Below, in pieces: positions 1-29,369 of a stretch of 63,713 bases of DNA. The DNA is from Anaerotruncus sp. (GTDB lineage: Bacteria > Bacillota > Clostridia > Oscillospirales > Ruminococcaceae), in NCBI GenBank assembly GCA_021770005.1, contig JAETRV010000014.1, positions 1 through 63,713 on the forward strand, read 5' to 3'. The position numbers and the translations under genes are program-made. The notes under the pieces are model-generated. The model had not been told where the DNA came from and ran no database searches. It worked only from the letters and a program-made list of their open reading frames with translations. Numbering within the stretch: the stretch's first letter is position 1; every line of letters begins with the position of its first letter.

Positions 1-128
1 AAGGACTACCGGAGGAGCGCGCCATCACGTTCGCTCACTATATCATCGATCACAATACTACGGTCCGTGCTACTGCAAAGGAATTTCATATAAGTAAATC
101 TACTGTACATATGGATGTTGTAAAATAA
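1..128 (+). pseudogene. spoIIID: SpoIIID N-terminal half, cut by the mobile element
   Basis: The frame opening at base 3 reads GLPEERAITFAHYIIDHNTT and continues through SKSTVH. This matches the N-terminal helix-turn-helix half of SpoIIID, the mother-cell transcription factor of sporulation. The window seems to begin one or two codons after the true start. After the His codon ending at base 110 the host sequence stops. The element then supplies codons for Met-Asp-Val-Val-Lys and a TAA at 126-128, so the protein is cut at about 43 residues. The C-terminal basic region needed for DNA binding lies 29 kb away at 29223-29369. Whether the short product is made or stable is unknown. Confidence 0.85.
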
Positions 129-136
129 AACGGTAT
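98..136. other. attL, left attachment junction
   Basis: Host spoIIID codons run into element DNA at ACATA (107-111). The element arm carries AACGGTAT at 129-136, the exact reverse complement of ATACCGTT at 29193-29200 near attR. In the inferred circular attP these two 8-base arms lie 40 bases apart and are centred on the ACATA core, the symmetry expected of a large serine integrase site. The core also continues as ACATATGGATGT here against ACATAAGGATGT at attR, one mismatch. Confidence 0.75.
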
Positions 137-194
137 GTATGGGTCGTCAAGTAAAAAAATCAACGTGTAAATGAGGATTTTTCTCAAATATGCG

Positions 195-222
195 TTGATT
201 TCTTTGCAGTTATGGGTATAAT
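195..222 (+). promoter_or_regulatory. Sigma-A-type promoter of the RloAB-like operon
   Basis: TTGATT (195-200) and TATAAT (217-222) are separated by 16 bases. Transcription would start near 229. This excludes the upstream ATG at 212 as the start of the first gene and favours ATG 245 (or 239). Confidence 0.6.
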
Positions 223-244
223 GGAAATGAGGATGGTGATGGAT

Positions 245-1498
245 ATGCTAATACAGTTTCGATTTCAGAATTTCAAATCCTTCCGGGATGATACGATTCT
301 GGACCTCTCGGCCACAAAAATCTCGGAATATAGCAATCACATTATTTCATCTGGTAATGAAAAGCTTCTCCCTGCTGCCGCTATTTTTGGGGCCAATGCC
401 AGTGGAAAATCAAATGTAATTGAGGCGCTGCGCTTTATGGCAACATATGTCATTGACTCCTTTATGTACGGTGGTGACAACGAAAAGGAACGGACCGAAC
501 GGCTACGAAACACCCCGTTTATCTTTGATTCCGCCAGCAAGAGGGCAGAGTCTTCTTTTGAGGTCTATTTCACTGGCAATGAAGAGCATGGAGAAAAGAC
601 CTACAATTACGGTTTTACATTAGATAACCGCGGCATTGTTGAGGAGTGGCTGAATACCAAAGCAAAAACCGCAAGAGATTTCCGGAGAATCTTCTATCGG
701 AATCCGAGAGAGCTGCTGTTAGACGGTATTTCTTCAAGACAGGAAGAAAATATCAGACTTTCTTTGGAAAAAGAAGTTTTGGTTGCTTCTCTGGGAGCGA
801 AGCTCAAGATAGACATTTTGAAGACAATCCGGGACTGGTTCTATTTTTTGAATTTTGCAGACTTTGGCGATCCCCGGGAAAACGAATTTTTATCGTCCAG
901 GATTCCCCGTGGGTTTTCTCGAAGTAAACAAGTTCAGAAAGAGGTTGCTTCCTATCTGGCTGCGTTCGATTCCTCTATTGTAGATTTCGAGGTCAAATTA
1001 TTGCGAGAAGACAGCCAAGGTGAGCTTGTACGGATTGATGCCTTGCACCGTACTAAGGATGGGCGTATTGTTTCCCTGCCATTCTCCCAAGAATCCGCTG
1101 GGACACTGAAGATGTTTGCGCTATATCCGTTCCTTCAGGATGCGATGGAGGAGGGTGGCATCCTGCTGATTGATGAAATGAATGCACGCCTGCACCCTCT
1201 TTTGGTTCGGAACTTCCTGTTGGCCTTTCTTAATCCCGAAGTCAATCCTAAACATGCGCAGATCATTTTTACCACGCATGACGCTTGGCAGCTCTCCAAT
1301 AATCTGCTGCGCCGGGATGAGATATGGTTTACAGAGAAGGATGGAGACGGAGCCTCCAGTCTCTACTCTCTGGCTGATTTTATAGATGAGGATGGCTCGA
1401 AAATCCGAAAGGATGAAAATTACGAAAAAAATTACCTCCTTGGCAAATATGGAGCCATTCCAGATTTGCAATACATGGATGTGCTTAGGAGGAATTAG
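245..1498 (+). CDS. RloA-like AAA/ABC-type ATPase (defence pair, ATPase subunit)
   Basis: An ATPase of the AAA15/AAA21 (SMC/OLD-like) class found next to RloB. Walker A is GANASGKSN at about residues 49-57. An SAGT signature lies near 284 and Walker B plus catalytic Glu is GGILLIDEMN near 304-313, followed by a D-loop-like His. It begins with the FRFQNFKSF stretch common in this family. Start ATG 245 is chosen because a promoter -10 box lies at 217-222. It is two bases upstream of the RloB gene, so the pair is one operon. In known ATPase plus TOPRIM pairs (RloAB, PARIS, OLD/Gabija types) the ATPase senses infection and licenses the nuclease. That role here is inferred from family and context, not shown. 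Confidence 0.8.
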   Translation: MLIQFRFQNFKSFRDDTILDLSATKISEYSNHIISSGNEKLLPAAAIFGANASGKSNVIEALRFMATYVIDSFMYGGDNEKERTERLRNTPFIFDSASKRAESSFEVYFTGNEEHGEKTYNYGFTLDNRGIVEEWLNTKAKTARDFRRIFYRNPRELLLDGISSRQEENIRLSLEKEVLVASLGAKLKIDILKTIRDWFYFLNFADFGDPRENEFLSSRIPRGFSRSKQVQKEVASYLAAFDSSIVDFEVKLLREDSQGELVRIDALHRTKDGRIVSLPFSQESAGTLKMFALYPFLQDAMEEGGILLIDEMNARLHPLLVRNFLLAFLNPEVNPKHAQIIFTTHDAWQLSNNLLRRDEIWFTEKDGDGASSLYSLADFIDEDGSKIRKDENYEKNYLLGKYGAIPDLQYMDVLRRN

Positions 1499-1500
1499 GG

Positions 1501-2148
1501 ATGTCAAGAGAACGAAACGGAGCACGAAAGCGGAGAGATAGTTTCCCCAAAAGAGTTCCAGATCTGGGCTACTATTTTGTTGTAACGGATACCAAGGAAA
1601 CCGAGCGGAATTATCTTTATGGCTTGCGGGACGCTCTGCCGGCGGAGCTGCAAGGCCGAATTGTGATTAAGGTCTCATCTGCTAAAACAGAAGAATTGGT
1701 AAAGGCTTGCGAGCAAGCCAGTATTGATCCTCAATATCGTCAGTGCTGGATCGTCTTTGACAGGGACAAAGTAGTTGCCTTTGATGATATTATCAGAGAA
1801 GCAAGAAGTAAAGACATCAAGATTGGCTGGTCAAATCCCTGTATTGAAATTTGGTTTGATGCTTATTTCGGAAAGATGCCTTCAATACAGGACTCTGTAT
1901 CTTGCTGGAAAGGTTTTGCCAGCCTATATGAAAAAGAAACTGGTCAGGAGTACGAAAAATCAAACCAGCAGATATATGCAATGCTGAATCGATTTGGAGA
2001 TGAATCTAGGGCAATACAAATTGCTGAAAAACGTCTTGAAACGCATTTAGCAGGTGGGGAGACAAGACCATCCCAGATGTGTCCCGGTACAACATTGCAT
2101 CATTTGGTGGACGAAATTCGCAAAAAAGTACTCCAAAATCAGAAGTAA
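1501..2148 (+). CDS. RloB-like TOPRIM-fold protein (putative nuclease of defence pair)
   Basis: A 215-residue RloB-family protein. The acidic TOPRIM-type positions are visible as TDTKETE near residues 28-35 and FDRDK near 86-90, with a conserved NPCIEIWFDAYF stretch near 116-127. TOPRIM nucleases of OLD/PARIS-type systems use such Glu and Asp-x-Asp residues to bind metal and cut nucleic acid. The gene starts two bases after the ATPase stop behind a strong AGGAGG, so the two are translated together. The pair sits at the extreme left end of the element, a usual place for accessory defence cargo. Substrate and trigger cannot be told from sequence. Confidence 0.8.
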   Translation: MSRERNGARKRRDSFPKRVPDLGYYFVVTDTKETERNYLYGLRDALPAELQGRIVIKVSSAKTEELVKACEQASIDPQYRQCWIVFDRDKVVAFDDIIREARSKDIKIGWSNPCIEIWFDAYFGKMPSIQDSVSCWKGFASLYEKETGQEYEKSNQQIYAMLNRFGDESRAIQIAEKRLETHLAGGETRPSQMCPGTTLHHLVDEIRKKVLQNQK

Positions 2149-2203
2149 CATAATGGCAATTCTAGAATTTTCTAAAAATTTTCCATGTGTCAAATTATGT
2201 CGA

Positions 2204-2441: not shown

Positions 2442-3276
2442 GATGGTGTCGTCAATAAAAGTGTGATATAATAGTCCTGAAGATGGCAAGGAGGACAGGA
2501 AAATGGCAGGAGAACAGCGACGGCATGACATAAGCGATAAAGCGTGGGAGAGAATCAGGCCGTACACCATCGGTGAAAAGGGGACGCGTGGCGGCAATGC
2601 CCGTGATACCCGGCGGTTTATCAATGGGGTATTCTGGATTCTTCGCACGGGAGCGCCCTGGCGTGATTTGCCGGAAACGTATGGAAACCGGAAGAATGTA
2701 CACCGCCGGTTTTGCCGGTGGCGTGACAAGGGGATCTGGGAAAGGATTCTGGAAACATTGGTGGAAGACACAGACTTTGAGTGGCTGATGATCGACGCCA
2801 GCCATGTCAAAGTACATCCTGACGCCGCTGGTGCGCGAGGCGGAAATCAGGCGATGGGCCGCATAAAAGGGGGCTCAACACCAAGATACATTTGGCCGTG
2901 GATGCGCATGATATGCCGGCGCGATTCTTTATCACTTCTGGTACCACAGCGGATTGCACAATTGCAGCGCGGCTGATTGAGGGCTTTCAGGCGCAATACC
3001 TTCTGGCGGATCGTGACTATGATACAGATGCAATCATTCTCAAAGCTGTTGACGAGGGAATGATACCGGTCATTCCGCCAAGAAAAAACCGTAAACATCT
3101 GCGGGAATACGACAAATATCCCTACAAGCTCCGCCATCTCGTTGAGAATGCTTTCCTGCTTCTCAAAAGGTGGCGCGGTATCGCTACTCGCTAAGCCAAA
3201 AATCTCGTTTCTTTCACTGCCGCTGTTCAAACTCGTTGTATTGCTATTTGGCTTCTTGTTTATTGACGATACTCTC
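2442..3276 (+). mobile_element. IS5-family (IS427-like) insertion sequence, 835 bp
   Basis: The ends are an 18-base inverted repeat with 3 mismatches: 2442-2459 (GATGGTGTCGTCAATAAA) and 3259-3276 (reverse complement GAGAGTATCGTCAATAAA). It contains one transposase in two frames. The right end interrupts another transposase gene on the minus strand (3277-3522), so the IS inserted into an older IS. A target-site duplication was not evident in the bases at the two borders. Confidence 0.75.
2503..3266 (+). pseudogene. IS427-group transposase, two frames plus a nonsense codon
   Basis: The first frame (2503 onward) carries the N-terminal domain with WERIRPY, GAPWRDLPE and the first catalytic Asp in MIDASHVK. 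Around AAAAGGGGG (2865-2873) the homology moves to the -1 frame, giving KGGLNTKIHLAVDAH, then LLADRDYD with the second Asp and NRKHLREYD. A -1 shift on A/G runs is a known expression mode in this group, so it may be programmed. Codon 3192-3194 is TAA where the family has Tyr (RYAK). The frame then continues as AKNLVSFTAAVQTRCIAIW to 3266, so this copy has also lost its last 24 residues by one base change. Likely inactive or weak. Confidence 0.75.
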
Positions 3277-4589: not shown

Positions 4590-5300
4590 TCAAATATGCA
4601 GATTCGCCCGCAGGCCCTTGAGTCTGTCCCGGCCGATCGGTAGCTCGGCAGCCGAGCCCCGAACCCGGAGGGCAAAATCGCTCCCGCTCCAGGGGAAAAT
4701 ATCCTGGACGTATTTCAAATGGACCAAGCAGGTCTTGTGAATCCGGTAAAACCTCCGATTGCGCAGGCGTTCCTCATAGACGCCCAGGGCGGTATTGTCG
4801 CTGTACTCATCGCCCGAAAGGGTGTGAATGATGCACCGCTTCCCGGAGCCGTGGGACTCGATATAGGTGATCTCGTTCAGATCCAGCAGGAGCGTATGCC
4901 TCTGGTTGCTGCTGATAGCGATGCGAAGCTCCTCCTGCTCCGGAAAACAGGAGCTGACTTGGCTGAGAATCTGCCGGATGCGGGCAGGATCGTAAGGCTT
5001 GAGGATATAGTCATTGGCCTGAAGCTCAAACGCGGTGACGGCATACTCGGAATAAGCGGTCGCAAAGATGATCTTTGCGTTTGGCATCAACCGCCGGGCC
5101 AGAGAGGCCACTGTAGTCCCCTCCATATCGCCCAGACGGATGTCAATGAACAGAAAATCGAAGGTCTTTTTCTCCAGCAGCTGCATCGCCTGCACCCCGC
5201 TTCCGGCCTCATACACCTCTGACTGGGGGGATATCTCACGGATCAGGCGGATCAACTCCTGACGGGAATTCTTCTCGTCGTCAACGACTGCGATACGCAT
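4590..5300 (-). CDS. LytR/AgrA-type response regulator
   Basis: A 236-residue response regulator. The receiver domain has the acidic pair at D7/D8, the phospho-acceptor in FLFIDIRLGD (D53), the conserved Thr in FATAYSEYA and Lys in YILKPYD. From about residue 130 a LytTR DNA-binding domain follows (EITYIESHGSGKRCIIHT, FYRIHKTCLVHLKYV). ATG 5300 follows AAAGGAG with 8 bases between; a GTG at 5309 is less likely. The start overlaps the end of the kinase gene by 20 bases, so the two are coupled. It probably controls the divergent TAXI-TRAP operon, inferred from position. Confidence 0.88.
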   Translation of the reverse strand: MRIAVVDDEKNSRQELIRLIREISPQSEVYEAGSGVQAMQLLEKKTFDFLFIDIRLGDMEGTTVASLARRLMPNAKIIFATAYSEYAVTAFELQANDYILKPYDPARIRQILSQVSSCFPEQEELRIAISSNQRHTLLLDLNEITYIESHGSGKRCIIHTLSGDEYSDNTALGVYEERLRNRRFYRIHKTCLVHLKYVQDIFPWSGSDFALRVRGSAAELPIGRDRLKGLRANLHI

Positions 5301-6993
5301 AGGATTCACTCCTTTCTGGTCTGGGCCGCAGGCCTCCGGGTGGTGTGAGCGGGAGGGAAAGGGATACGGCAGAGCCTTGCTCCGAGCTATTTACCGAAAG
5401 AACGTATTGGCTACCGTAGACACTTCGCAAGCGTTTCTGCACGTTGAACAGCCCGCTATAACCGGCATCGTTGGGATCGTGGAGGCGTTCGATGATCTCC
5501 GGCGGAAACCCATGGCCTTGGTCTGCAATCCGGATGTCGACCCGCCTGTCGGCCTGGTGGATGGCAATCTCGACATGCCGCTCCTCTACTGCGGTCTTTC
5601 CATGCCGTATCGCATTTTCCACGATCGGCTGGAGAATCAAAGGCGGCAGATAGAGCATCGGAAGCGCGTCGGGCAGCTCCCACACGACATGGATTGCTCC
5701 CTCAAAACGGGCTTCGGTAATGTCCAGGTAGTTCCGCACATTGGACAGCTCCTGCTCTAGGGTGACAAACGGCTCGTTGACCGTGAGGGACTGCCGGAAA
5801 TAGCTGGCCAGCGTCAGGATCGTCTCCTGAGCCCGCTTTGGGCTGGTACTGCACAGAGAGGAGATGGTGCTCAGGGCGTTGAAGAGGAAATGCGGGTCGA
5901 TCTGCAATTGCAGGGCCCGCAGCTCGGCCTGCTGGCGAAGCTGGATCTGGAGCTGGAATTCTCCCAGCTCCAGCATGGAGGAAAACATCTGCGCCAAACC
6001 TTCCGCGATGCGGCAGTCTGCTTCCAGGATCAGGTTTGGCCCTTGGGGGACACAGAGGATGAGCGTCCCCATGATCTCCCCCCGCCAGGCCAGAGGGGCG
6101 GCGATCACCGCCCAATCCGGGCCGCAGGTCTCACAGCCGCCCCGTTCCACCACCAGTTTCCCCTCTTCAATGGCCCGTCGGGCAGGAGGAAGCAGGGGAG
6201 CATCGTCCAACCGCGGGCCGCTGACCGCCACCACCTGTTCCAAACTGGTGAGCGCCACCTGAAACTCTGTCAGTATCTCCTGCACCGTGTCCACCGCTTT
6301 CTGCATCGCAGTACGGTTCTCCATCCCCTCCCGAAGAAATGGAAGGCACTTCTGGGCGATAAAAAGCGCCAGATACTGCTGCTCCGCCAACTCGATGGCC
6401 ACGCTACGGTTCAAGCGGCCCAGCAGCCCCATAAACAGGACAAGCCCCAGAGAATTGACTACAATTTTAGGAAGCAGGATGACCTTTTCCAGATCGACCG
6501 CAGCGGAAAAGGGTTTTGATATCAGCAGAATCAACGCCGACTGGAGCAGCTCGGCCAAAACAACCAAGGCGACCAAAATCAGGTTTCGATGCTTTTTCTG
6601 GGGCAGCCGATGGCAGGCTGCTGCCCCGATCAGGCCAAAGCAGAAGGTACCGATGCCGCAGGCTAGGGAGGTAAAGCTGGACGGGTCATAAAAGATGCGG
6701 TGGATACCTCCCAGCAGGCCGGCACACAGTCCGGGGATCGTCCCGCCCACCAGACCCGCGGCCAGGGTGCTGATCACCCGGGTGTTGACCACCGCACCCT
6801 GAAGCCCAAATCCGGTATAGGTGCCGCTGACAGACAGCGCACCAAAAATCAGACCTAGGCAGAGCTGCTCTGACAGGGATTTGTTCTGTTTTTTGAGCAG
6901 CTGCCGCAGGGGACCCAGCTCGATCAAAACAGCCGCTACCAGGACCAGAAGGCTGACATTGACCAGCAGGTATTCCAAAAGCTCATTTTTCAT
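5281..6993 (-). CDS. LytS/YehU-type sensor histidine kinase
   Basis: A 570-residue membrane sensor kinase. Residues about 5-190 are hydrophobic segments of the 5TMR_LYT type, with the NTRVISTLAAGLVGG motif. A GAF-like region follows at about 230-350. The HisKA_7TM/His_kinase block has the phospho-accepting His in IDPHFLFNALS near residue 368. The ATPase N-box is IVENAIRHG near 458 and the G-box IADQGHGFPP. ATG 6993 is chosen for its upstream AAGGGGG; codons before it are not family-like. Partners of this class sense small carboxylates or pyruvate in known systems, which would fit regulation of the neighbouring transporter, though the ligand is unknown. Confidence 0.88.
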   Translation of the reverse strand: MKNELLEYLLVNVSLLVLVAAVLIELGPLRQLLKKQNKSLSEQLCLGLIFGALSVSGTYTGFGLQGAVVNTRVISTLAAGLVGGTIPGLCAGLLGGIHRIFYDPSSFTSLACGIGTFCFGLIGAAACHRLPQKKHRNLILVALVVLAELLQSALILLISKPFSAAVDLEKVILLPKIVVNSLGLVLFMGLLGRLNRSVAIELAEQQYLALFIAQKCLPFLREGMENRTAMQKAVDTVQEILTEFQVALTSLEQVVAVSGPRLDDAPLLPPARRAIEEGKLVVERGGCETCGPDWAVIAAPLAWRGEIMGTLILCVPQGPNLILEADCRIAEGLAQMFSSMLELGEFQLQIQLRQQAELRALQLQIDPHFLFNALSTISSLCSTSPKRAQETILTLASYFRQSLTVNEPFVTLEQELSNVRNYLDITEARFEGAIHVVWELPDALPMLYLPPLILQPIVENAIRHGKTAVEERHVEIAIHQADRRVDIRIADQGHGFPPEIIERLHDPNDAGYSGLFNVQKRLRSVYGSQYVLSVNSSEQGSAVSLSLPLTPPGGLRPRPERSESYAYRSR

Positions 6994-7160
6994 CGCTTTT
7001 CCCCCTTGCGGTTTTTCTCTTTTTGCACAGGGTAACACTGTTTTTTCTGAAAATCAAGCACTTTTTTCTCTCATTTTTTGCCGGGATCAGACATCCTCCG
7101 CTGTTTATTCCTGAAATACAGCGATTCATTCCTTCTACGGCACAGGATAAGCCAATCCTA

Positions 7161-7312: not shown

Positions 7313-8377
7313 ATGAGGCACATGAAACGACTGATGGCACTGGCACTTGCCCTGTGTATGGCATTTGCTCTGATCTCCTGTGGGAGCAGCCCAAGCGCTC
7401 AACCCGCTGACCCCGGAACTGCCAGTAGCCAGTCCGATGCTTCCGGTAGCACCGAAGGAGCCGCTGCCGAAGGCGGTCTGACCGAAGCAGAACGGGCCAA
7501 AGAGTTTGTTACCGTGGCCACCGGCCCCACCTCCGGCATCTATTTCCCCATCGGCGGCGCTTTCGCTACCGCGCTCAGTGATTGGGGATATACCACCAGC
7601 GCCCAAGCCACCGCGGCTTCCGGCGAAAACATCCAGCTGATCCAGGAGAGCGGCGCCGAGATCGCGATCGCGATGCAAGACTCGGTGATGCAGGCCTACG
7701 AGGGCTTCGGCGCTTATGAGGGCAAAGAGCCTGCCAGCAACCTGCGTGCTCTGATGCGCCTCTGGCCCAACTATGTACAGCTGGTCACCACTGCCAATAC
7801 CGGCATTAAATCGGTAGAGGACCTGAAAGGCAAGCGTGTGGGTGTAGGTGCGGCGAACTCGGGCGTGGAGCTGAACGCCCGCATGATCTTCGAGGCATAC
7901 GGAATGAGCTATGACGACTGCACCGTTGACTATCTGGCCTACGGTGAGGCGATCGACAACATGAAGAACGGCCAGTGCGACGCGGTGTTTGTCACCTCCG
8001 GACTTCCTAACGCCACCGTCACCGAGCTGGCTACCAGCTATGATATGGTCATTGTTCCGATCGACGGCGACGGCCGCGACAGACTGATTGCCCAGTACCC
8101 CTTCTATGCCGCTACTACCATCCCTGCCGATACTTACAACAACAAAGAGGACGTCCAGAGCGTCTTCGTATACAACATCATGCTGGTGCGGGACGACCTG
8201 TCCGATGCCATGGTCTACGATATGCTCAACGGCATTTTTGAGAATATCGCTACCATCCAGGCTTCCCACAACGCGGCCAACAAAAACATCTCTCTGGATG
8301 TGGGCATCAGCGACCTGCAGCTTCCGCTGCATCCCGGGGCTGAAAAATGGTGGGCAGATCACGGCTTTACCAAATAA
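7313..8377 (+). CDS. TAXI-family TRAP transporter solute-binding lipoprotein
   Basis: A 354-residue secreted binding protein. It starts with a lipoprotein signal (MRHMKRLMALALALCMAFAL, then ISC-G, Cys at about 23) and a low-complexity Ser/Ala/Gly linker. The mature part has the TAXI features VTVATGPTSGIYFPIGGAFA, a LKGKRVGVGAANSGVELNA block and DAVFVTSGLPN. AAAGGAG lies 10 bases before ATG 7313. The stop codon overlaps the next ATG by one base. It delivers a carboxylate or amino-acid-like substrate to the fused permease. Substrate is unknown; glutamate, C4-dicarboxylates or similar acids are known for the family. Confidence 0.9.
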   Translation: MRHMKRLMALALALCMAFALISCGSSPSAQPADPGTASSQSDASGSTEGAAAEGGLTEAERAKEFVTVATGPTSGIYFPIGGAFATALSDWGYTTSAQATAASGENIQLIQESGAEIAIAMQDSVMQAYEGFGAYEGKEPASNLRALMRLWPNYVQLVTTANTGIKSVEDLKGKRVGVGAANSGVELNARMIFEAYGMSYDDCTVDYLAYGEAIDNMKNGQCDAVFVTSGLPNATVTELATSYDMVIVPIDGDGRDRLIAQYPFYAATTIPADTYNNKEDVQSVFVYNIMLVRDDLSDAMVYDMLNGIFENIATIQASHNAANKNISLDVGISDLQLPLHPGAEKWWADHGFTK

Positions 8378-15510: not shown

Positions 15511-15564
15511 ATCTCGGCGCAGAAAAAATTCAAATATCCAAATCAAATTCAGGAGGTAAAAGTG

Positions 15565-16500: not shown

Positions 16501-16513
16501 AGGAGGTGATGAA

Positions 16514-17458: not shown

Positions 17459-17471
17459 ATGGAGGATCACG

Positions 17472-18239: not shown

Positions 18240-18316
18240 CACAGGATGGATATACAAGGCCCGGTGTCCTTGCTTGACCGCAGGGATGCCGGGCTTATCT
18301 TTTGGGAGGGAAACAG

Positions 18317-20156: not shown

Positions 20157-20185
20157 TTGAAAGACAATAGAGGAATTGCTATAAT
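20157..20185 (+). promoter_or_regulatory. Promoter of the ParB-like gene
   Basis: TTGAAA (20157-20162), 17 bases, TATAAT (20180-20185), 25 bases before ATG 20211 with AAAGGAGG between. Confidence 0.75.
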
Positions 20186-20210
20186 ACAGGAAAAAAGGAG
20201 GAGTACTTCT

Positions 20211-22160
20211 ATGGATTCATTTGCTCCGATTCCTTCACATGAGGATCAGGTTGAAATTGAACTTGAGAAACTCGTTCCATTTGGCCACTATCCCTTCAGT
20301 TGGTTTCAGGGGCAACGACTGGAGGAGATGGTTGATGAAATCAGCAAGCATGATCCCATCGACATCATTGATGGACATCTTGTGAGAGGAAGTCTTACTG
20401 GCATTAGAATAATTAGTCCGATCATTGTCCGTCCTACTACTGATGACCAATATGAAATTCTTGATGGACACTATCGGGTTGCTGCTGCAAGGAAGTTAAA
20501 GAGAATACTGCAATTACAATCGGTAAAGATTCCAGCGATCATCAAAAGAGATCTGACTGATGAAGAAGCTCTGTCTGAAGTTTCAGACACGAATCCTATT
20601 AGACTACTTTTGAAACACGGTATTGATATTTTTTGTGAAAATTATATCCAGTCTGATGGGTACAAGTGTTTGGCTGGCGCCTTGATTTGTTCAGACGGAA
20701 ACAGCAGCATGGCCTTAGACGAATACATAGAACACTTCCTGCTGGACGATCATAATAGATATGATTTATATGAAAGTATCTACAGTATGGGAAATCCCTA
20801 TGAACTGAATGAAGAAGAATGTAACGATGAGGTTGTGGCCCGTGAGATTCTTCAAATAATCACCCCAGAGTATAAAGAAAAAATGGCTAAGCTGGAAAAA
20901 TCAAAAGAGGAACGTGACATAGATGCTCTAAGTAAACTACAGGCCACAATAGAAGATGAAATACCAGAGTTAGTCCGCACCTTTGTCCGAAAAGACAGTG
21001 GTTATATTCAGCAGCTAAAGGATTATCTGAATTTTGATTTGGATTCCTACGATTATAATGATATTCAATACCAGCGTGAGAGAGCCAAACTTCTCTTTTT
21101 CGTTCATATGGTGAAAAAGAGAATATTTCCCCATGCGAATATCTTACAGTTACTCAGTAGACCTTCTATGGAAAACATTGATAACTCGTTCCTGGGATGG
21201 GAAACGAGCAACGGAAAGTACGTCAAATTTGTGAAGCATGAGATCGAGAAAGAACTTTCATTGACCCGAAAAAGCAACATTAAACAGGCTGTGTCCTTTG
21301 TCGTAAACACATGGGGAGACTACATCAATGCGCTATGCCACGATGTTGCTCTTGTGCTTGCTACCGGAGGAGACTGTTCAGAAGAATTAGAATCAATAAT
21401 AGCCCATATGCAAGCAGTTTTTGTTTATCAGAAACCTGTGGAGTGCAGATTCGCTCCCCTATCTCCATTGGAAGCATTCTACTTGAGGCTCACGCAAAGC
21501 GAGTATCTCGGGCAACTATACGATATACTGGAAATTCACAAAATGAGCTCCGGTGCCGATTATTCCGTCCCTGTGAAATATATAAAGAAAATGAGAGAGT
21601 TTCAGTTAAGAAAAATGAGCACTGAGGACATAGAGAAATTTTTTGAACCCGAAAATATCCAGCAGATTGCAAAATATGTCTATCTAAAGGACGAGACGAG
21701 CAAAGAGGAACGGAGGAAGATACGGAATAGCAAAGACAAGGTGTTTAGGTTCCTTGATTTTTGCAAACTTGCTGATCCTTTGGGGATTTACAATGTGATG
21801 GAGGATGTTACTGAACTGCTGATTATTTCATGCTTACAGAGTATTCTTTTGGACAGCAGCAATGAGATATTCGATTATGCCTTTCATGGATTTGAAGGTG
21901 GAAAAGGATACCGCAAAGGAAAGATTCGTGTTCAGGCCGCATTGAAAAACGACCGTCATACTTATGATGCTTTACAAGTTTACTGGGTTTGCCGGGTTAT
22001 GGATCGTAGCTATGCCAATGTGGGTGACAGCAATATCAGGAAGGCAACGGCAGAAGTTGAAGTAAGATGTATCGAAGTATTATCACGAGTTTTGAACAGT
22101 TCCACGATTGAAGAAATGTTGGAGGCAAGCAGTTTTTATTTGAATAAATCAACGGAGTAG
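20211..22160 (+). CDS. Large ParB-domain protein, 649 aa
   Basis: The N-terminal 110 residues form a ParB/Spo0J-type nucleotide-binding domain: IELEKLVPFGHYPF, RIISPIIVRPTTDDQYEILD and the key GHYRVAAA motif (the ParB box has G-H-R-R). The remaining 540 residues are mostly helical, AT-rich in codon use and match no family I know. No ParA lies nearby, and the protein is about twice the size of ordinary ParB. Alternatives are a transcription regulator or a ParB-fold enzyme. It has its own promoter and terminator, so it is a monocistronic unit. Confidence 0.7.
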   Translation: MDSFAPIPSHEDQVEIELEKLVPFGHYPFSWFQGQRLEEMVDEISKHDPIDIIDGHLVRGSLTGIRIISPIIVRPTTDDQYEILDGHYRVAAARKLKRILQLQSVKIPAIIKRDLTDEEALSEVSDTNPIRLLLKHGIDIFCENYIQSDGYKCLAGALICSDGNSSMALDEYIEHFLLDDHNRYDLYESIYSMGNPYELNEEECNDEVVAREILQIITPEYKEKMAKLEKSKEERDIDALSKLQATIEDEIPELVRTFVRKDSGYIQQLKDYLNFDLDSYDYNDIQYQRERAKLLFFVHMVKKRIFPHANILQLLSRPSMENIDNSFLGWETSNGKYVKFVKHEIEKELSLTRKSNIKQAVSFVVNTWGDYINALCHDVALVLATGGDCSEELESIIAHMQAVFVYQKPVECRFAPLSPLEAFYLRLTQSEYLGQLYDILEIHKMSSGADYSVPVKYIKKMREFQLRKMSTEDIEKFFEPENIQQIAKYVYLKDETSKEERRKIRNSKDKVFRFLDFCKLADPLGIYNVMEDVTELLIISCLQSILLDSSNEIFDYAFHGFEGGKGYRKGKIRVQAALKNDRHTYDALQVYWVCRVMDRSYANVGDSNIRKATAEVEVRCIEVLSRVLNSSTIEEMLEASSFYLNKSTE

Positions 22161-22942: not shown

Positions 22943-23017
22943 ATTGTTGAGCAGCGGCGAGTCAGCCTTATGACCGGCACTGTTCTCCTTAACTATTATA
23001 ATGGGGTGTTCAGAACT

Positions 23018-24940
23018 ATGGGAAAGAAGCACAAAAAATACAATAGATGGATTGGAGATAATAATTATGATGCCAGAACCGTAAGCCTCCCTGCTACGGA
23101 TTATATCTACCCTCGACAATCACAGGAGCCGGAAGGGAGAAGTCCTCCGAAAGAAATGCTCCTCCCCGTACAGGACGGCCCCGGTTTCTTTTTGGGCCTG
23201 CCAAGCGGGCCCGGAGGAAGTAGCTACATCGGCATACCGCAGAATACCGAAGGAAATTTCATGGTGGTTGGCGGAAACGGCAGCGGCAAAAGCTCGGGGA
23301 TCGCCAAACCAACGTTAAAAACATGGCGGGGGCCAATCTGTGCTACGGATGTCAAAGGCGAGCTGTCCCTGTGTTATGGGGAACTGCACGACCAGGGGCT
23401 TGTCACACGCCCCTATCTCGTTTTTGATCCGACACAGCCAGAGGGCCCCGGTTACGATCCGCTTTGGCTGCTGTCACGCGATGGTGAGGACAACCTTTTC
23501 AACAATGTCAGGGAAATTGCCATGGCGATCGCTCCAGTTTCGCCCGATGACAAGCAGCCCTTCTGGGCCGAAACGGAACAGGGGGTAGTTGCGGCGGCAC
23601 TCCTCTATTATTTCAAACTTGGATTGAGTTTCAGTGAAATCATGTGCAAAATTCTATCTTCGTCAACAAGTGAATTATGTAAAACGCTGGTGCAAAGCCA
23701 AGACGTTTGTGTGCGGATTCTCCTCGGAGAAATGGCCGCCATGAAACCGGAAACCCTTGCAAATATTGATCGGGGATTGCGTAACAAAATTATGTTGTTT
23801 GCTACTGATCCTTACATCAGCCATGCGTTTCGGGGCCAGCGAGAGGGAGCAAGCTGTTTCAATTGGAGCGACCTCGATCATTATAACATTTTCCTGCGTA
23901 TTCCCGCAGATAAAATTGATCAATGGAGTGGAGCGATCAACCTTATGTACACCCAACTGATTCGACATTTGGAACGCCGGCCCGAAAAATACAGTGCGGG
24001 TGGTGCAAGCAATCGTCAAACGCTGCTACTGATGGACGAGTTCGCCCGGTTTGGAAAGCTCCCAATGATTACCGCCGCCATGGCTACCCTGCGCAGCAAA
24101 AACGTCAACATCTGTTTGATGGTCCAAAGCGTTGCACAGCTGGACAAAATCTACGGCGAACATGACCGGCGAATCATCTTTGACAACTGCCAATTTCAGG
24201 CGATCTTGCGGGCCAACGATGCCGACACACAGAAATACCTCTGTGAGTTAATCGGAACCCGCATGAGCATCCAGCGTAGCACGAGTGAACACATGGACGA
24301 AGATTTGGACACCACAAGTTACGGTACGCAAACCAGCGAAATCCGGGAGTGGACCGTGCAACCTCATGAGCTTGCCACACTGGACGATGTGCTTTTGCTG
24401 ACGCCCTATGGGTTCTGCCGGGCAGAGAAATTTCGACTGTACAATGAAGAAATGCGCTCCCTATTATTGGCCGCCCCCAAGATCATTCGTGCAAAAGTTA
24501 TTTCTGTTGTGCCGGCTGAAACAGGCAAACTTCAAGTGCCGCCCGATCATGTCCTACAACCTACAGAAGTTATCTCGTATCATTCTCTCAAAAACGAAGG
24601 AGCGACGATTATGTCTATTGAAAAGCGAGTTGCAAATGCCAACCGGCGCATCGATGCCGCAGAACAGAAACGGCGGCAGGAAGAACGGGCTGCTCAGGAG
24701 GCACAGAGGAAAAAGGACAGCCGCCGCAGCTACGCCATTGGGGAACTGGTTGCTAAGTATTTCCCCCAAGTCTCAGACCTTGAGCAGGAAACAAATGGCG
24801 AGAATACCGATAGCTTTGAACCCTTGGAAGCATTTCTGTACGTCCTATCTACTGATTATGAATTGGTTAAAGAACTGAAAGACCGGGCAGCTCAACTGGT
24901 ATCGGATGACCCGGGTGGAGAGTGGCGCGCACCCGTTTGA
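23018..24940 (+). CDS. VirD4/TraG-type conjugative coupling ATPase
   Basis: A type IV secretion coupling protein of about 640 residues. Walker A is VVGGNGSGKSSG near residues 83-94, and Walker B is TLLLMDEFARFGKLP near 336-350. CLMVQSVAQLDKIYGE and NCQFQAILRANDADTQKY follow, as in TraG. Unlike many VirD4 proteins it shows no clear N-terminal membrane segments, so it resembles soluble TcpA/VirD4-like forms of small elements. ATG 23018 is chosen because the protein from MGKKHKK is plausible; ATG 22970 in the same frame is possible, and neither has a strong ribosome site. It brings the relaxase-DNA complex to a mating channel, here probably one supplied by a helper. Confidence 0.85.
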   Translation: MGKKHKKYNRWIGDNNYDARTVSLPATDYIYPRQSQEPEGRSPPKEMLLPVQDGPGFFLGLPSGPGGSSYIGIPQNTEGNFMVVGGNGSGKSSGIAKPTLKTWRGPICATDVKGELSLCYGELHDQGLVTRPYLVFDPTQPEGPGYDPLWLLSRDGEDNLFNNVREIAMAIAPVSPDDKQPFWAETEQGVVAAALLYYFKLGLSFSEIMCKILSSSTSELCKTLVQSQDVCVRILLGEMAAMKPETLANIDRGLRNKIMLFATDPYISHAFRGQREGASCFNWSDLDHYNIFLRIPADKIDQWSGAINLMYTQLIRHLERRPEKYSAGGASNRQTLLLMDEFARFGKLPMITAAMATLRSKNVNICLMVQSVAQLDKIYGEHDRRIIFDNCQFQAILRANDADTQKYLCELIGTRMSIQRSTSEHMDEDLDTTSYGTQTSEIREWTVQPHELATLDDVLLLTPYGFCRAEKFRLYNEEMRSLLLAAPKIIRAKVISVVPAETGKLQVPPDHVLQPTEVISYHSLKNEGATIMSIEKRVANANRRIDAAEQKRRQEERAAQEAQRKKDSRRSYAIGELVAKYFPQVSDLEQETNGENTDSFEPLEAFLYVLSTDYELVKELKDRAAQLVSDDPGGEWRAPV

Positions 24941-24997
24941 GTGCTCTGTTTTAGTAAGTAGTAATGATGCAAAAGTGTGAAAGGAAGGGCGAGATTT

Positions 24998-25768
24998 ATG
25001 GCAAATTACCATTTTGAGACTAAAATCATCAGTCGTGGCAAGGGTCGTTCCGTTACCGGAGCAGTCAGCTACATCTGCGGGCGGACACTGCGCGACAGTT
25101 ATACCGGCAAGACATACTATAATCATCGGAAAGACGTTGTTTGGCAAAAAATTTTTTTACCAAGCAACGCACCACAGGAATTCCAGGATATTCAATATCT
25201 CTGTGACAAGATTGATCAGGCCGAGATGCGCTGGGATGCCCGCACGGCGCGGCAGTTCATCGGCTCTTTGCCCAACGAGCTGCCACCCGGGGAATTGGTT
25301 CGGATTATTCATGAGTTCATAGAGAGCAATTTCCTGTCCTATGACCTTTGTGCGATTGCAGCTATCCATCGGGGCTGCAACCGTGATGACCCGTCCAAAA
25401 ATAACCCTCATGCCCACATCGTTGTTCCCACCCGAGCAGTCGGCCCGGATGGGTTCAGCCCGAGGAAAGATCGAAAGCACGATCAGAGGAAGTACATTAA
25501 AATCTGGCGGGAGCAATGGGCAGAGGTGCAAAATCGGGCCTACAAGCGAAATGGGCTGGACATCCGCGTCAGCCACGAGAGCCTGGAGGTTCAGGGAAAG
25601 TATGACCGTGAGCCCACCATCCACCTGAGCCGCATCGACTGGCAAAAGGAGCAGCGCGGCGAACGCACGGCCGCCGGCGATCGGAAGCGCGCCATTCGTG
25701 ACCGCAATGATGAGCGCGCCCAAATGCGTCAGCCAAAGCGGGAGCCGGAAATGGAGCTGTCACGGTGA
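24998..25768 (+). CDS. MobA/MobL (MOB-Q type) relaxase
   Basis: A 256-residue relaxase. MANYHFETKIISRGKGRSVT GAVSYICGRTLRD carries the likely catalytic Tyr25. HRGCNRDDPSKNNPHAHIVV has the HxH metal site near 136-140, with downstream WREQWAEVQNRAYKRNGLD typical of MobA/L. It nicks at oriT and leads the strand in transfer. It is short for the family, lacking the helicase or primase C-terminal part, and ends in a charged Arg/Glu tail. The origin of transfer should lie close, perhaps in 24941-24997 or 25769-25900, but I cannot identify it. Confidence 0.88.
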   Translation: MANYHFETKIISRGKGRSVTGAVSYICGRTLRDSYTGKTYYNHRKDVVWQKIFLPSNAPQEFQDIQYLCDKIDQAEMRWDARTARQFIGSLPNELPPGELVRIIHEFIESNFLSYDLCAIAAIHRGCNRDDPSKNNPHAHIVVPTRAVGPDGFSPRKDRKHDQRKYIKIWREQWAEVQNRAYKRNGLDIRVSHESLEVQGKYDREPTIHLSRIDWQKEQRGERTAAGDRKRAIRDRNDERAQMRQPKREPEMELSR

Positions 25769-25910
25769 CGAAATCCGCATCAGGCCGCCGTTCGCTTATA
25801 TATTATCCTTGTGAGAGGGGAAGGCATGACCCGAAGTTGGTACTATTTTCCGCTGGACGCTCATAGATTGTACAAGGAACATCCGCTAAAAAGGAGGTGG
25901 CGATGCCGCC

Positions 25911-26096
25911 GTGAAGGATCGAAAGCTCAACTACCGGTTTCACAACCCCAACTCGGAGGCAGAAACCGCCGACTACATACTGAAAATTTTCATCGAGGCC
26001 AACGCGGGAAAGGTGGAGGCGGCGATACAAGAAGCCGCTGCCACTCTCCCCGCTGCCAGTGAGGAATCGGACTGCTGCCAAGGGCGTTCCGCATGA
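25911..26096 (+). CDS. Small protein following the relaxase, 61 aa
   Basis: GTG 25911 overlaps a mini-frame ATGCCGCCGTGA that sits at the right distance from AAAGGAGG (25891-25898), suggesting reinitiation. The protein reads MKDRKLNYRFHNPNSEAETA then DYILKIFIEANAGKVEAAIQ. Similar small proteins follow relaxase genes in clostridial elements. Function is unknown. A terminator overlaps its end. Confidence 0.7.
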   Translation: MKDRKLNYRFHNPNSEAETADYILKIFIEANAGKVEAAIQEAAATLPAASEESDCCQGRSA

Positions 26097-26121: not shown

Positions 26122-27522
26122 TTACGCTTCATAGCTTTTCAGCATACTCTCATATTCAACCAGCGTCACATTACCCAGCTCGTTTGCTTTCTCCATGCAG
26201 CCCTTGGTAAAGCCGGACTTGGAAAACAGAAAATAGCGCACCTTGCTGTACGGGAACAACCGGCTGCGGCGAACTAGAGTTTCCAACACACCCAAATCAA
26301 CCTTTTCGTTTGCCCACTTGCACTCGCCAAAGAGGGCGGTAGTTTTATCCTGCTCGCCTAGAATATCGATCTCTGTCTGCGCCCTTTCAATAGGGTCATT
26401 CCCCCACCAGCGGCCCAGAGAGGCGAACTCCACGGGGGAATTGCCCTCCAGCAGCAGCTTCCACAGGTATTGCTTGCATATCTCCTCAAACACTCTTCCC
26501 ATGTAGTCGGAGAGCTGCGGCGCAATGCGCTGATAGACCAAATCAGCGGCCCCACGGGCGATCAGCGAATTGTTCTCCAGCACAAAACGATGCCAGAAGC
26601 GGAACATATTATCCTCAATGGAGTACAGGGACTTGCGGGAAGCCTTTTCCCCATAGGGTGTCTCCTTCTGCACGATCCCCAGGCTGATGAGATTCTTGAT
26701 ATAGCTCGCGCAGACGTTGGTATCCTCCCCCACCTTGCTTGAAATCTCCGACATCCGGGAGGCCCCTGCTGCGATGGCGGTGATAATCGCCGTGTAGATA
26801 GCCGGTTCCCGCACCTCCTGTTTCAGAAGATTTACCGGCTCCTCATAGAGAAAGGAAATCGGATTGAGAAAGGTATTTTTGATGTTTTCCTCAATGCTTA
26901 GACGGTCGTTGATTTGCAGCAGATATTGCGGCGTCCCACCTACAATTCCGTAGGCCAGCGCCTTGTCCTCGCCCTGGAAGTGGCTGAAATAGCGGCAGGT
27001 CTCCTCAAAATCAAAGGGCAGTAGCTTCATCTGTGCTGTGCGCCTGCCGTAGAGCGGGGCCTTGTATGCCAACACCTGGTCCTCCATGTAGGACATGGAC
27101 GAGCCGCAGAGAATCAACATCAGTCTGGAGGTATCTTTATTCTTGTCGATCAAAAGCTGCAAGGTGGAGGCAAGGCTTTTGGAGGACCGTGCCATATATG
27201 GGTACTCGTCCAGCACAAGAACCACCCGTTCTGTCTCTGCCAACTTGAACACATATTCCAGCGCCGCCTGGAAAGATGTAAAGGAGTTCTCCGCCGCAAT
27301 GCCGCTGGCGTATTCCAAAATGCTCTTGCTGAGGTTTTCCAGATTCTGTTTGGCGTTGCTCTCCACGCCCATGAAGTAGATGGCCTTTTTGCCCCGGATA
27401 AACTGGGTCAGAAGGGCCGTCTTTCCCACGCGGCGGCGGCCATACACAACGGCAAATTCAAACTTGCCCGATGCGTATAGCTGTTCCAACGATTTCAGCT
27501 CCCGCTCTCTTCCAATGAACAT
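26122..27522 (-). CDS. ATP-binding protein with DUF234 nuclease-like domain
   Basis: A 466-residue AAA (ATPase_2/AAA_14) protein. It starts MFIGRERELKSLEQLYASGK; Walker A is YGRRRVGKTALL near 27-38 and Walker B VVLVLDEYPYMA near 98-109. ILCGSSMSYMED and a winged-helix region (ISSKVGEDTNVCASYIKNLI) follow. The C-terminal DUF234 part has EIDILGE and ALFGECKWAN, the ExD and ExK residues of a PD-(D/E)XK fold. Such proteins are common in archaea and anaerobes; no clear role is known, though the nuclease-like end suggests DNA processing or defence. It is read toward the mobilization operon, with its own promoter. Confidence 0.85.
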   Translation of the reverse strand: MFIGRERELKSLEQLYASGKFEFAVVYGRRRVGKTALLTQFIRGKKAIYFMGVESNAKQNLENLSKSILEYASGIAAENSFTSFQAALEYVFKLAETERVVLVLDEYPYMARSSKSLASTLQLLIDKNKDTSRLMLILCGSSMSYMEDQVLAYKAPLYGRRTAQMKLLPFDFEETCRYFSHFQGEDKALAYGIVGGTPQYLLQINDRLSIEENIKNTFLNPISFLYEEPVNLLKQEVREPAIYTAIITAIAAGASRMSEISSKVGEDTNVCASYIKNLISLGIVQKETPYGEKASRKSLYSIEDNMFRFWHRFVLENNSLIARGAADLVYQRIAPQLSDYMGRVFEEICKQYLWKLLLEGNSPVEFASLGRWWGNDPIERAQTEIDILGEQDKTTALFGECKWANEKVDLGVLETLVRRSRLFPYSKVRYFLFSKSGFTKGCMEKANELGNVTLVEYESMLKSYEA

Positions 27523-27547
27523 AGACGCACCTCCATTCGCTGTATTT

Positions 27548-27577
27548 AGTATATCACATCCGCCGCAAATTAGTCAA
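27548..27577 (-). promoter_or_regulatory. Promoter of the DUF234 ATPase gene
   Basis: On the minus strand TTGACT (27572-27577), 18 bases, TATACT (27548-27553). Confidence 0.65.
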
Positions 27578-27615
27578 TTATGATTTACTAAAGATAGCTC
27601 CACTAAATTTCGACA

Positions 27616-27644
27616 TTGATTCTCTGACAAAAGTATGCTATTAT
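27616..27644 (+). promoter_or_regulatory. Promoter of the integrase gene
   Basis: TTGATT (27616-27621), 17 bases, TATTAT (27639-27644), 45 bases before ATG 27689. Confidence 0.65.
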
Positions 27645-27688
27645 ACAGATATAGTAGAACGTTTCGACTTTAACAGAGAGGTTTACCT

Positions 27689-29224
27689 ATGAATATTGCC
27701 GCTTACTGCCGTGTCTCCACGGAAAAGGAAGACCAGCTCAACAGTCTGGAGGCCCAGAAGGAGTTTTTTTCTGAGTACACCCAGCGCACCGGGGACACGC
27801 TCATCCGTCTGTACGCTGATGAAGGGCTATCCGGTACCAAGATCAAGAACCGCAGGGAGTTTCTGCGGATGATGGCGGATGCCGAGCACCACCTGTTCGA
27901 CATGGTGGTGGTCAAGGACATCTCCCGCTTTGCCCGAAACACGGTGGACCTGCTGCAAAATGTCCGCAGGCTGAAAGCCCTGGGCATCGAAACCCAGTTC
28001 CTCACCGCCAACATGACCAGCATGGGCAACAGCGAGTTTGTTTTAACCATCTTCGGTGCGCTGGCCCAGGAGGAGAGTGCCAACACCTCCAAGCGGGTGA
28101 AGTTCGGCAAAAAGCTGAACGCCGAGAAGGGCCGTGTCCCCAACATCGTCTACGGTTACGACAAGACCATCGGGGACTACTTCAACCTGACCATCAACCA
28201 GGAGGAGGCCGCTGTCATCCGGCAGATCTATCACTGGTACACCCAGGAGGGCTACGGCTCCGCCAAGATCGCAAGTATGCTCAACGAGCGGGGCCTGAAA
28301 ACCAAGCGCAGCTGCCAGTGGAGTCAGAACGCCGTGGGGCATATCCTCCGAAACGAGTTATACACCGGGAAGATCATCAACGGCAAGCAGGAGGTCACGG
28401 ACTTCCTCACCGGACAGAGAGCGGACCGGGATGAAACCGACTGGATCGTCGTGGACAAGCCCGAGCTGCGCATCATTGACGATGAAACCTTCCAGCTTGC
28501 CCAAGAGGTCTTACAATCCCGGCACAGCGCCTTCAAGATCACACGGGAGCGGCAGAGCAACAAGCACTTGTTCTCCACCCTCATCAAATGCAAGGAGTGC
28601 GGCTGGTCGTTCCGGCGTACTGTCCGCACCTACAAAAACACCTATGTTCGCTGGGTCTGCTCCGGCCACAACGGGCGGGGAGCCGACAGCTGCCCCAACG
28701 CCGTGACGGTGGATGAGGAGGAGCTGATCGAGGTCTTGCAGGAATATTTCGCCGGGCTGCTGAAAGCGAAGAAATCGGTCATCAGCTATGTGGTGGGCCA
28801 GTTCCAGAAGGTCTACAAGGCCAAAGACGAGAACCTGAACTACGAGAAAGAGTTGACCGCCCAGCTCGCCAAGCTGCAAAAGACCCGGCAAAAGTACATG
28901 GATATGTATGCCGACGACCTGATCTCCCGGGACGAGCTGAATGCCAAAATCGGCGGGATGCGTAAGGAGATCGAGCGGCTGGAAAACGAGTTGAAAATGA
29001 TCTCCTACAACCTGACCAAAGGGGAGCAGCTTGAGAGCGTCCTGAGCAATACCTTCAAGGAGATCGAGGACATCACCGACGTACACCAGATGACCAATAC
29101 ACAGCTGAAGCGCCTCATCCAGAAGATCGAGGTGGATAGAGAGGGGAATGTTGACATCTACCTGCGGCTTTTAGGCGACCTGGGGCTGGACAATACCGTT
29201 CTAATTAGCGATAACCTTACATAA
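27689..29224 (+). CDS. Large serine recombinase (integrase of the element)
   Basis: A 511-residue site-specific recombinase. The N-terminal resolvase domain has the catalytic Ser10 in MNIAAYCRVSTEKEDQLNSL and KDISRFARNTVDLLQNVRRL. The Recombinase domain has GYDKT and AVGHILRNELYTGKIINGKQ. A zinc ribbon near 300-345 has KCKECGW and CSGHNGRGADSCPN. A coiled coil lies near 385-440 (KELTAQLAKLQKTRQKYMDM). It catalyses insertion into and, with a directionality factor, excision from spoIIID. Its TAA stop (29222-29224) is built from the crossover core and host DNA. In the joined circle the frame would run on for 14 codons, YGCCKIKRYVWVVK, to TAA at 152-154 of the left end. No directionality factor is recognised. 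Confidence 0.93.
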   Translation: MNIAAYCRVSTEKEDQLNSLEAQKEFFSEYTQRTGDTLIRLYADEGLSGTKIKNRREFLRMMADAEHHLFDMVVVKDISRFARNTVDLLQNVRRLKALGIETQFLTANMTSMGNSEFVLTIFGALAQEESANTSKRVKFGKKLNAEKGRVPNIVYGYDKTIGDYFNLTINQEEAAVIRQIYHWYTQEGYGSAKIASMLNERGLKTKRSCQWSQNAVGHILRNELYTGKIINGKQEVTDFLTGQRADRDETDWIVVDKPELRIIDDETFQLAQEVLQSRHSAFKITRERQSNKHLFSTLIKCKECGWSFRRTVRTYKNTYVRWVCSGHNGRGADSCPNAVTVDEEELIEVLQEYFAGLLKAKKSVISYVVGQFQKVYKAKDENLNYEKELTAQLAKLQKTRQKYMDMYADDLISRDELNAKIGGMRKEIERLENELKMISYNLTKGEQLESVLSNTFKEIEDITDVHQMTNTQLKRLIQKIEVDREGNVDIYLRLLGDLGLDNTVLISDNLT

Positions 29225-29234
29225 GGATGTAACC
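29193..29234. other. attR, right attachment junction
   Basis: Element DNA with ATACCGTT (29193-29200) runs to ACATA (29219-29223), after which host spoIIID resumes as AGGATGTAACCGATC. The ATACCGTT arm is the mirror of AACGGTAT at 129-136, and both lie 18-19 bases from the shared ACATA. Confidence 0.75.
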
Positions 29235-29369
29235 GATCGATTGAAAAAGATCAACCCCACGATCTATGCACAGGTCAAGCAAGTGCTTGACCTAAACAAG
29301 TCCGAGCGGCATATCCGAGGCGGGATTGCCACGCGGGAAAAATACGCGCGGATCAAAAGCTATGGCTAA
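29223..29369 (+). pseudogene. spoIIID: SpoIIID C-terminal half
   Basis: From 29223 the frame reads KDVTDRLKKINPTIYAQVKQ then VLDLNKSERHIRGGIATREK YARIKSYG and stops at 29367-29369. It matches the second half of SpoIIID, including the RHxRGGxATxxKY block of the C-terminal basic region that contacts DNA with the helix-turn-helix. There is no start codon or ribosome site of its own. Joined to 1-111 it gives a protein of about 86 residues, the normal size of clostridial SpoIIID. Production of full SpoIIID therefore requires excision of the element. Confidence 0.85.

Follow-up and report, generated by a model that had tools for sequence, protein, structure and literature searches.

We analyzed the 63,713 nucleotides of contig JAETRV010000014.1 from Anaerotruncus sp. 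(assembly GCA_021770005.1), hereafter called the window, at the left end of which the sporulation regulator gene spoIIID is interrupted by a 29,112-bp element. This element occupies positions 112-29223, directly 3' of the codons for STVH, and has the sequence TACATA at each end, the base that follows this core being different on the two sides (T112 vs. A29224; see table 1 for the other features). A search of the assembly (2.93 Mb in 155 contigs, 96.5% complete) with the SpoIIID profile PF12116, for which the cut-off is 27 bits, returned two matches above this value, one at 12-125 (profile positions 5-42, 49.8 bits) and one at 29214-29351 (profile positions 35-80, 74.1 bits), and no third or intact match. 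The two halves have the same orientation and belong to a sporulation gene of which the assembly holds no intact copy. A sequence-only reading of the window had placed them at 1-111 and 29223-29369; the profile supports both, except that the C-terminal half begins inside the core, its CAT lying at 29220. Excision of 112-29223 produces ISKSTVHKDVTDRLKKIN, in which STVHKDVTDRL is read in frame and matches intact spoIIID of the same genus, so that the restoration of this motif by removal of the DNA between the ACATA repeats, proposed in that reading, is reproduced by joining the halves at the core. Two findings named there as counter-evidence, a second intact spoIIID and failure of the halves to match the SpoIIID profile, were not encountered. 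Since the window begins at base 1 of its contig, the 5' end of spoIIID lies outside it. A search of all contigs found bases 1-111 nowhere else; the idea that the assembly branched at this point into the integrated and the empty form, so that the contig starts exactly 111 bases before the junction, is thus unproven, there being no second contig with those bases.

The protein encoded at 27689-29224 combines Resolvase, Recombinase and zinc-ribbon domains, which together characterize a large serine recombinase (Pfam), as expected from the earlier claim that the element carries an integrase; its best full-length match among solved structures is YokA, the integrase of SP-beta. The recombinases of eight relatives are 51-97% identical to it, and seven of the nine proteins have 511 residues, the other two (515 and 526) reading through the junction. 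Left junctions display a P' arm like ATGGATGTAAYAAAATAGAACGGTT, and right junctions a P arm in the 3' end of the recombinase gene with inverted ACCGTTCTAATT, the exception being genome G005, whose arms differ and whose right end lacks a recombinase. The insertion point in spoIIID is an ordinary serine-integrase site. In four viral contigs of IMG/VR (L136 and L137-L139) the recombinase gene runs into P' without spoIIID, i.e., through an unrecombined attP, and the small open reading frame (ORF) discussed below is also present. These viral recombinases are of two types, that of L136 being 69% identical to the window protein and that of L137-L139, one identical sequence from three samples, 72%. 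The scan of gene neighbourhoods, which covered L136 and L137, found an endolysin gene close to both integrases, accompanied in L136 by genes for a tail protein and a DNA ligase and in L137 by one for a DNA polymerase, on account of which we consider the two contigs to be phages. Because the viral contigs hold unrecombined attP, non-integrated forms of this integrase type exist, a point that says nothing on sporulation.

The same interruption recurs in relatives. In a SpoIIID profile search of 100 genomes (that of the window and 99 relatives), the protein was present in 82, with no match in 18, and 12 genomes, the window's included, had only halves, divided at the same place; relatives thus have either intact spoIIID or the same split, rather than the two unrelated genes that had been considered as a further possibility. 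One half only was found in four of these 12 (G001, G036, G039, G077), the contigs of which end nearby. Within the genus of the window the gene is split in 6 of 11 genomes and intact in 5. The halves are 6.7 kb apart in G068, a 3.0-Mb genome in one contig, and 125 kb apart in G005. (G012 and G054, which possess intact spoIIID, were left out of the split count, and G078, tried as a further case, was dropped for its differing junction and lack of a P' arm.) Additional N-terminal halves bearing an att arm occur beside the intact gene in G012 (L049, C2:60781-67552) and G054 (L055) and in tandem in G132, G133 and G148; L145, L147, L184 and L185 also list such copies. An even sample of the whole class contained SpoIIID in 176 of 245 genomes and, besides the window's own, included four (G196, G207, G209, G282) with two matches having E-values in the range of halves, which are known by E-value alone.

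We also scanned a genome collection with an alignment of the recombinase, finding 426 relatives, the best 80 of which are used for the locus counts. The C-terminal half of spoIIID lies directly 3' of the recombinase in 74 of the 80 loci, which include those of Blautia massiliensis, B. schinkii, [Ruminococcus] torques ATCC 27756, Schaedlerella arabinosiphila, Extibacter muris, Agathobaculum butyriciproducens and Angelakisella massiliensis; according to database names, carriers are distributed across many Lachnospiraceae and Oscillospiraceae. The contig ends at or just past the junction in L056 and L107, and four loci (L061, L068, L074, L113) fail the text test for the C-terminal half, which the genome of L113 contains 137 bases further on. 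(The L056 contig, from an uncultured Eubacteriales, stops at 3494, one base past the att core, an end that might reflect the coexistence of integrated and circular forms in the sample.) SpoIIID was searched in the genomes of 50 of the 80 loci, the remaining 30 lying outside the SpoIIID and spoIVA counts. A match was obtained in 48 of the 50: both halves in 42, the C-terminal half only in five (G102, G104, G128, G129, G145) and an intact gene in one (G108), with none in G103 and G113. Both halves lie on one contig and strand in 33 of the 42, at distances from 4 kb (G135) to 70 kb (G133). Joining halves at the core gave an open SpoIIID in all 20 cases tried, for which halves had been pre-selected by their open-frame pattern.

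Given that the identical junction recurs in relatives and at 74 of 80 recombinase loci, the split is not due to chance. A chimera of assembly or binning, which might be suspected from the start of the window contig 111 bases before the junction and from the 155 contigs of its genome, would hardly produce the same split, orientation and att arms in the one-contig G068, nor the split in two isolates, Blautia massiliensis GD8 and Schaedlerella arabinosiphila, whose contigs measure 3.5 and 6.3 Mb; the element of S. arabinosiphila has about 5.1 kb. We have consequently rejected this explanation for the class and give it next to no credence for the window.

The junctions also affect the recombinase gene itself. 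At attR of the window it ends with ACA-TAA, the final A of which derives from the host, whereas in attP its frame continues into P'. A tail like YGSNKIERFVWVIE-stop was read over 55 left junctions (among them those of G012 and G054 and of two G148 copies; the fragmentary halves G130b and G148a gave no junction), with a length of exactly 14 codons in 34 and of 12-20 in 17 more, the exceptions being G005, open throughout the 40 codons read, G123, with a tail of 4 codons, and both G144 and G149, with no tail codons. The recombinase frame stays open over 12 codons or more in 50 of 53 unique arms, compared with 6 and 3 for the other frames and 29% of shuffled arms; tails of 13-15 residues are closed by three types of stop (18 TAA, 15 TAG, 2 TGA), and the variability at the three codon positions of 32 unique 14-residue tails is 0.91, 0.53 and 1.07 bits. 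On account of the single open frame, the three stop types and the variability by codon position, the P' tail is, by its sequence pattern, coding, and the free circular form of the integrase gene is predicted to encode a conserved C-terminal tail that integration takes away. A role of this tail in stability or control of direction is suggested by analogy with the integration-dependent immunity of mycobacteriophages, in which attP lies inside the repressor gene, integration removes the C-terminal end of the product and tags govern its stability (PMC9262239). The two situations share an attP within a gene whose product loses its C-terminus on integration; they differ in that the mycobacteriophage systems involve the tail of a repressor and tyrosine-type integrases, whereas here it is the serine integrase that carries the tail.

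In 72 of 82 loci the recombinase gene is preceded, on its own strand, by an ORF of some 60 residues, four of the 72 (L100, L102, L107, L114) being cut by a contig end; L099, L115 and L118, in which the recombinase start is missing or not entered, are outside these counts and those of promoters. The consensus of the small ORF is KKRKLNYRFHNPN....TADYILK.LIEAN..KVE.AIQ, and the predicted structure of the window protein is a single long helix (pLDDT 76.9, pTM 0.40). This ORF (25911-26096 in the window) is likely to encode the recombination directionality factor (RDF) of the system. A motif of two boxes lies 5' of it, GGACTATTTT followed by CATAGWWATGG, with 14 bases from TATT to CATA, the alignment having been anchored on CATA so that conservation there is by construction. 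The sigmaE consensus of Bacillus subtilis is KMATATT-N13-15-CATA. Allowing at most one mismatch to this consensus in unique upstream 90-mers (viral loci and loci away from spoIIID included), a sigmaE-like match at the level of a promoter motif was present in 43 of 64 RDF upstreams, 42 of them with the 14-base gap, against a background of 176 and 126 per 20,000 random 90-mers in two draws and 68 of 12,800 shuffles. Published sigmaE promoters have an 8-base -35 element and a -10 element at positions 21-30 (PMC517825). A sigmaE promoter on the recombinase itself was looked for and not found (0 of 77 upstreams); instead, a sigmaA-type pair of boxes is found in 43 of the 77, as compared with 7 of 64 RDF upstreams and 1,280 of 20,000 random sequences. 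The sequence TAACAGA[AG][CT], like the attP arm, is present in 44 of 77 recombinase upstreams vs. 104 of 20,000 random ones (window copy at 27652-27661); since these letters follow the recombinase promoter, they suggest that the recombinase may repress its own gene.

We compared 335 pairs of recombinases and host genes by synonymous divergence (dS), few of them having comparable host genes. Among the pairs listed, many show a recombinase less diverged than the adjacent host genes, or neighbours without a match, indicating that the elements move between hosts; the reverse holds for L091/L092, and divergence is about equal for L104/L106 and L125/L134. Five pairs were taken to a selection test over 33 N-terminal and 44 C-terminal codons of the spoIIID halves. 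The ratio of silent to changing differences was 5:0 for G144/G149, 7:0 for G132/G133 and 27:0 for G000/G002, and in the wider pairs changing differences were 10 of 54 (G000/G005) and 16 of 56 (G000/G007), far below the neutral expectation, a pattern by which the halves are under purifying selection. G144/G149 and G132/G133 share their layout beside the junctions, and the split looks inherited along with the halves in these pairs, as is likely for G000/G002. These counts make it very improbable that spoIIID has become dispensable or been replaced, leaving the halves as relics, even if 10 of the 18 surveyed genomes without a SpoIIID match keep spoIVA and could be taken to favour this. The spoIVA gene is retained in all 12 split genomes of the survey (in pieces in G005, G007, G010, G039 and G077), is missing in 8 of the 18 genomes without spoIIID vs. 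5 of 70 others, and has a match in 47 of the 50 recombinase-locus genomes, with none in G103.

The split with its exact junction, its recurrence, the viral attP, the conserved RDF-like ORF with its motif and the purifying selection form the observed basis on which we consider it highly probable that the window contains a spoIIID-intervening integrative mobilizable element that is excised in the mother cell to rebuild the gene, much as the skin-like interpretation of the sequence-only reading had anticipated. Integration would follow phage-type chemistry, a codon of spoIIID serving as attB. During growth a sigmaA-like promoter would supply the recombinase, and the element would remain stable because excision would need the RDF. 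Upon sporulation, sigmaE would switch on the small RDF gene in the mother cell, RDF and recombinase would join attL with attR, the circle would leave and the halves would become an intact SpoIIID for the late mother-cell genes, with inheritance of the element ensured by the forespore, which would retain it. We judge it unlikely, albeit with features that fit, that the element is instead purely parasitic, using spoIIID as a landing site and excising at random for transfer so that only cured cells sporulate. The relaxase (MobA/MobL) and coupling protein found by Pfam beside the integrase of the window element would suit such a life, yet elements of 3.8-5.1 kb (L133, L110, L076, L091) have no transfer genes by eye and keep the recombinase and RDF-like ORF; the recombinase promoter looks vegetative, but a putative sigmaE-type promoter lies on another gene common to most elements. 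Equally, the mobility of the recombinases between hosts and the patchy insertion within the genus agree with parasitism, whereas the halves show no amino-acid change in three pairs, two of them apparently inherited with the split, and no frameshifted half is found among the junctions listed, apart from incomplete additional copies in G130 and G148.

Several points weigh against the proposed excision of the element in the mother cell, which we infer from sequence. Some concern the distribution of its parts: L061, L068 and L074 are located away from spoIIID, and the genomes of L061 (a Christensenella) and L074 have no SpoIIID match at all, so integrases of this type can presumably use other sites or have lost their target; G001 and G010 have no close recombinase in their broken assemblies; and the nearest recombinase of G005 is 48% identical with an internal stop, so that excision may be impossible in this strain. 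To judge from pairs in which the recombinases are closer than the host genes, a large number of insertions are recent, and selection on the halves may predate them. No spoIVA match was found in G128, where only the C-terminal half was found, or in G130, which has both halves. Other points concern the RDF, whose identity we guess from how well the ORF is conserved and from its size and position: the ORF was not found in 10 of the 82 loci (L057, L058, L083, L094, L095, L105, L112, L120, L131, L132), and the candidate has no meaningful family match in Pfam or NCBIfam. As to its promoter, the rows compared are related sequences and not independent, 21 of the 64 RDF upstreams fail the sigmaE test, and a looser pattern had no match in G001, G002, G005 and G007, four of the five further species with a split gene in the genus of the window. 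Of 47 spoIIID upstreams, 17 pass the sigmaE test when one mismatch is allowed and 30 when two are, and so it is no sharp detector in these hosts. The RDF motif may also be read by sigmaK instead of sigmaE; sigmaK acts later than SpoIIID.

Like spoIIID a mother-cell gene, spoIVA is interrupted similarly in some relatives. Pieces of it, mostly split near residues 404-411, are found in L152 (G005, C2:445076-451735), L154/L155 (G010), L156/L157 (G061), L158/L159 (G039), L160/L161 (G109), L166/L167 (G007) and L168 (G008). In L152, L155, L157, L159 and L161, a large serine recombinase different from that of the window lies against the C-terminal part of spoIVA or reads into it. In G106 the split is near residue 147 (L162, L163), the parts lying 252 kb apart at C20:236830-237279 and 489488-490534, and another serine recombinase is present 5' of the second part.

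SpoIIID acts between sigmaE and sigmaK, and hence an element in its gene would place the rearrangement at a gate that precedes those of all cases known to us. Spores help Lachnospiraceae and Oscillospiraceae to pass between hosts. We are inclined to believe that spoIIID elements with an RDF tied to sigmaE and an integrase switching its C-terminus (long in the circle, short in the chromosome) occur in these two large gut families, where they would subject the first mother-cell regulator after sigmaE to control at the level of DNA, and that, together with the spoIVA cases, mother-cell rearrangement, to date described for few genes, is common in gut sporulation. Genome surveys may wrongly count such carriers as lacking spoIIID; nature also provides, in these elements, numerous versions of a recombinase/RDF pair whose att sites are known, as well as a case in which the editing of an integrase by its own integration can be tested.

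The known skin arrangement, a constitutive recombinase with a mother-cell RDF, would by analogy have been moved here to spoIIID. The skin element of Clostridioides difficile sigK has been proven to have a sigmaA-driven recombinase and an RDF dependent on sigmaE and SpoIIID, whereas in B. subtilis skin it is the recombinase that sigmaE and SpoIIID control (PMC5025042). With the former our elements share the large serine recombinase beside the 3' half of the gene, its sigmaA-type promoter and a small putative RDF with a mother-cell-type promoter motif; they differ in the target, one step earlier, so that the RDF cannot depend on SpoIIID as the C. difficile RDF CD1234 partly does. With B. subtilis skin they would share the rebuilding of a mother-cell gene by excision, but not a sigmaE-type site on the recombinase. 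SP-beta in spsM is likewise a phage-type element with a large serine integrase and a small RDF (a candidate here), in another gene and other host families; no phage structural gene is present among the 20 ORFs of the window element covered by the Pfam scan. The gin element, which is mobile but not a prophage, likewise interrupts a small gene for a sporulation regulator (gerE), and the recombinases of gin and vfbin are expressed at sporulation (PMC5595907); unlike ours, gin and vfbin (in spoVFB) are in Bacilli and in other genes. The yin element in yabG of Clostridium botulinum resembles ours in having a putative RDF gene with a putative sporulation promoter, its circular and integrated forms coexisting; it is reported as unique to one strain (PMC10747680), in contrast to the widespread spoIIID elements. 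The interrupted sporulation genes named in those texts are sigK, spsM, spoVFB, gerE and yabG (PMC10747680, PMC5595907). No report of an interrupted spoIIID appeared in the literature searched, judged by titles and the beginnings of abstracts, with subscription papers and preprints thinly covered, in line with the earlier statement that no described case was known to its author and without proving priority.

Table 1. Positions in the window of the divided spoIIID gene and of the features of the element that separates its halves.
Feature	Position	Strand	Basis
5' half of spoIIID, incomplete (contig start), to attL core	1-111	+	PF12116 positions 5-42
attL: core TACATA 106-111 and P' arm	106-154	+	junction alignment; same joined layout in viral contigs
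Predicted tail in the recombinase frame, YGCCKIKRYVWVVK-stop, specific to the circular form	110-154	+	P' arm translation
AbiL-like defence pair (cargo): AbiLi 212-1498, AbiLii/RloB 1501-2148	212-2148	+	Pfam, PADLOC
Insertion-sequence transposase remnants (nested cargo)	2503-3194	+	translation only, family named by eye
Response regulator and sensor kinase pair (cargo), which we take to be LytT/LytS-like	4590-7038	-	translation only
TAXI-type TRAP transporter (cargo): NMT1_3 binding protein 7313-8377, DctM permease 8861-10864	7313-10864	+	Pfam
DUF932, YqaJ-like and DUF3846 genes	15562-18697	+	Pfam
Small resolvase	19233-19802	+	Pfam
ParB-N domain protein	20157-22160	+	Pfam
Type IV coupling protein (TraG/VirD4 type)	22970-24940	+	Pfam
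MobA/MobL relaxase	24977-25768	+	Pfam
Putative sigmaE-type promoter of candidate RDF: TACTATT 25841-25847, 14 bp, CATAGATTG from 25862	25841-25870	+	motif
Candidate RDF, 61 residues, GTG start	25911-26096	+	conservation
ATPase_2/DUF234 protein (PADLOC PDC-S27)	26122-27522	-	Pfam, PADLOC
Putative sigmaA-like recombinase promoter (TTGATT, 17 bp, TATTAT), then attP-arm-like TAGTAGAACG	27616-27661	+	positions hand-counted
Large serine recombinase, 511 residues, stop completed by host base at attR	27689-29224	+	Pfam, alignment
attR: core TACATA 29218-29223 and, within the recombinase 3' end, P arm with approximate outer limit	29180-29223	+	
3' half of spoIIID including stop	29220-29369	+	PF12116

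The transposase remnants of the window element, located between the AbiL-like pair and the TRAP genes, are spread over two frames or more, and the left 12 kb of the element appears to have been assembled through nested insertions. The related element of G002 has no DNA match to most of these 12 kb. The cargo differs also among other elements, L065 and L067 having genes for type II restriction or methylation, while L133 (3.8 kb) and L110 (4.0 kb) contain, by eye, little beyond the recombinase and the RDF-like ORF.

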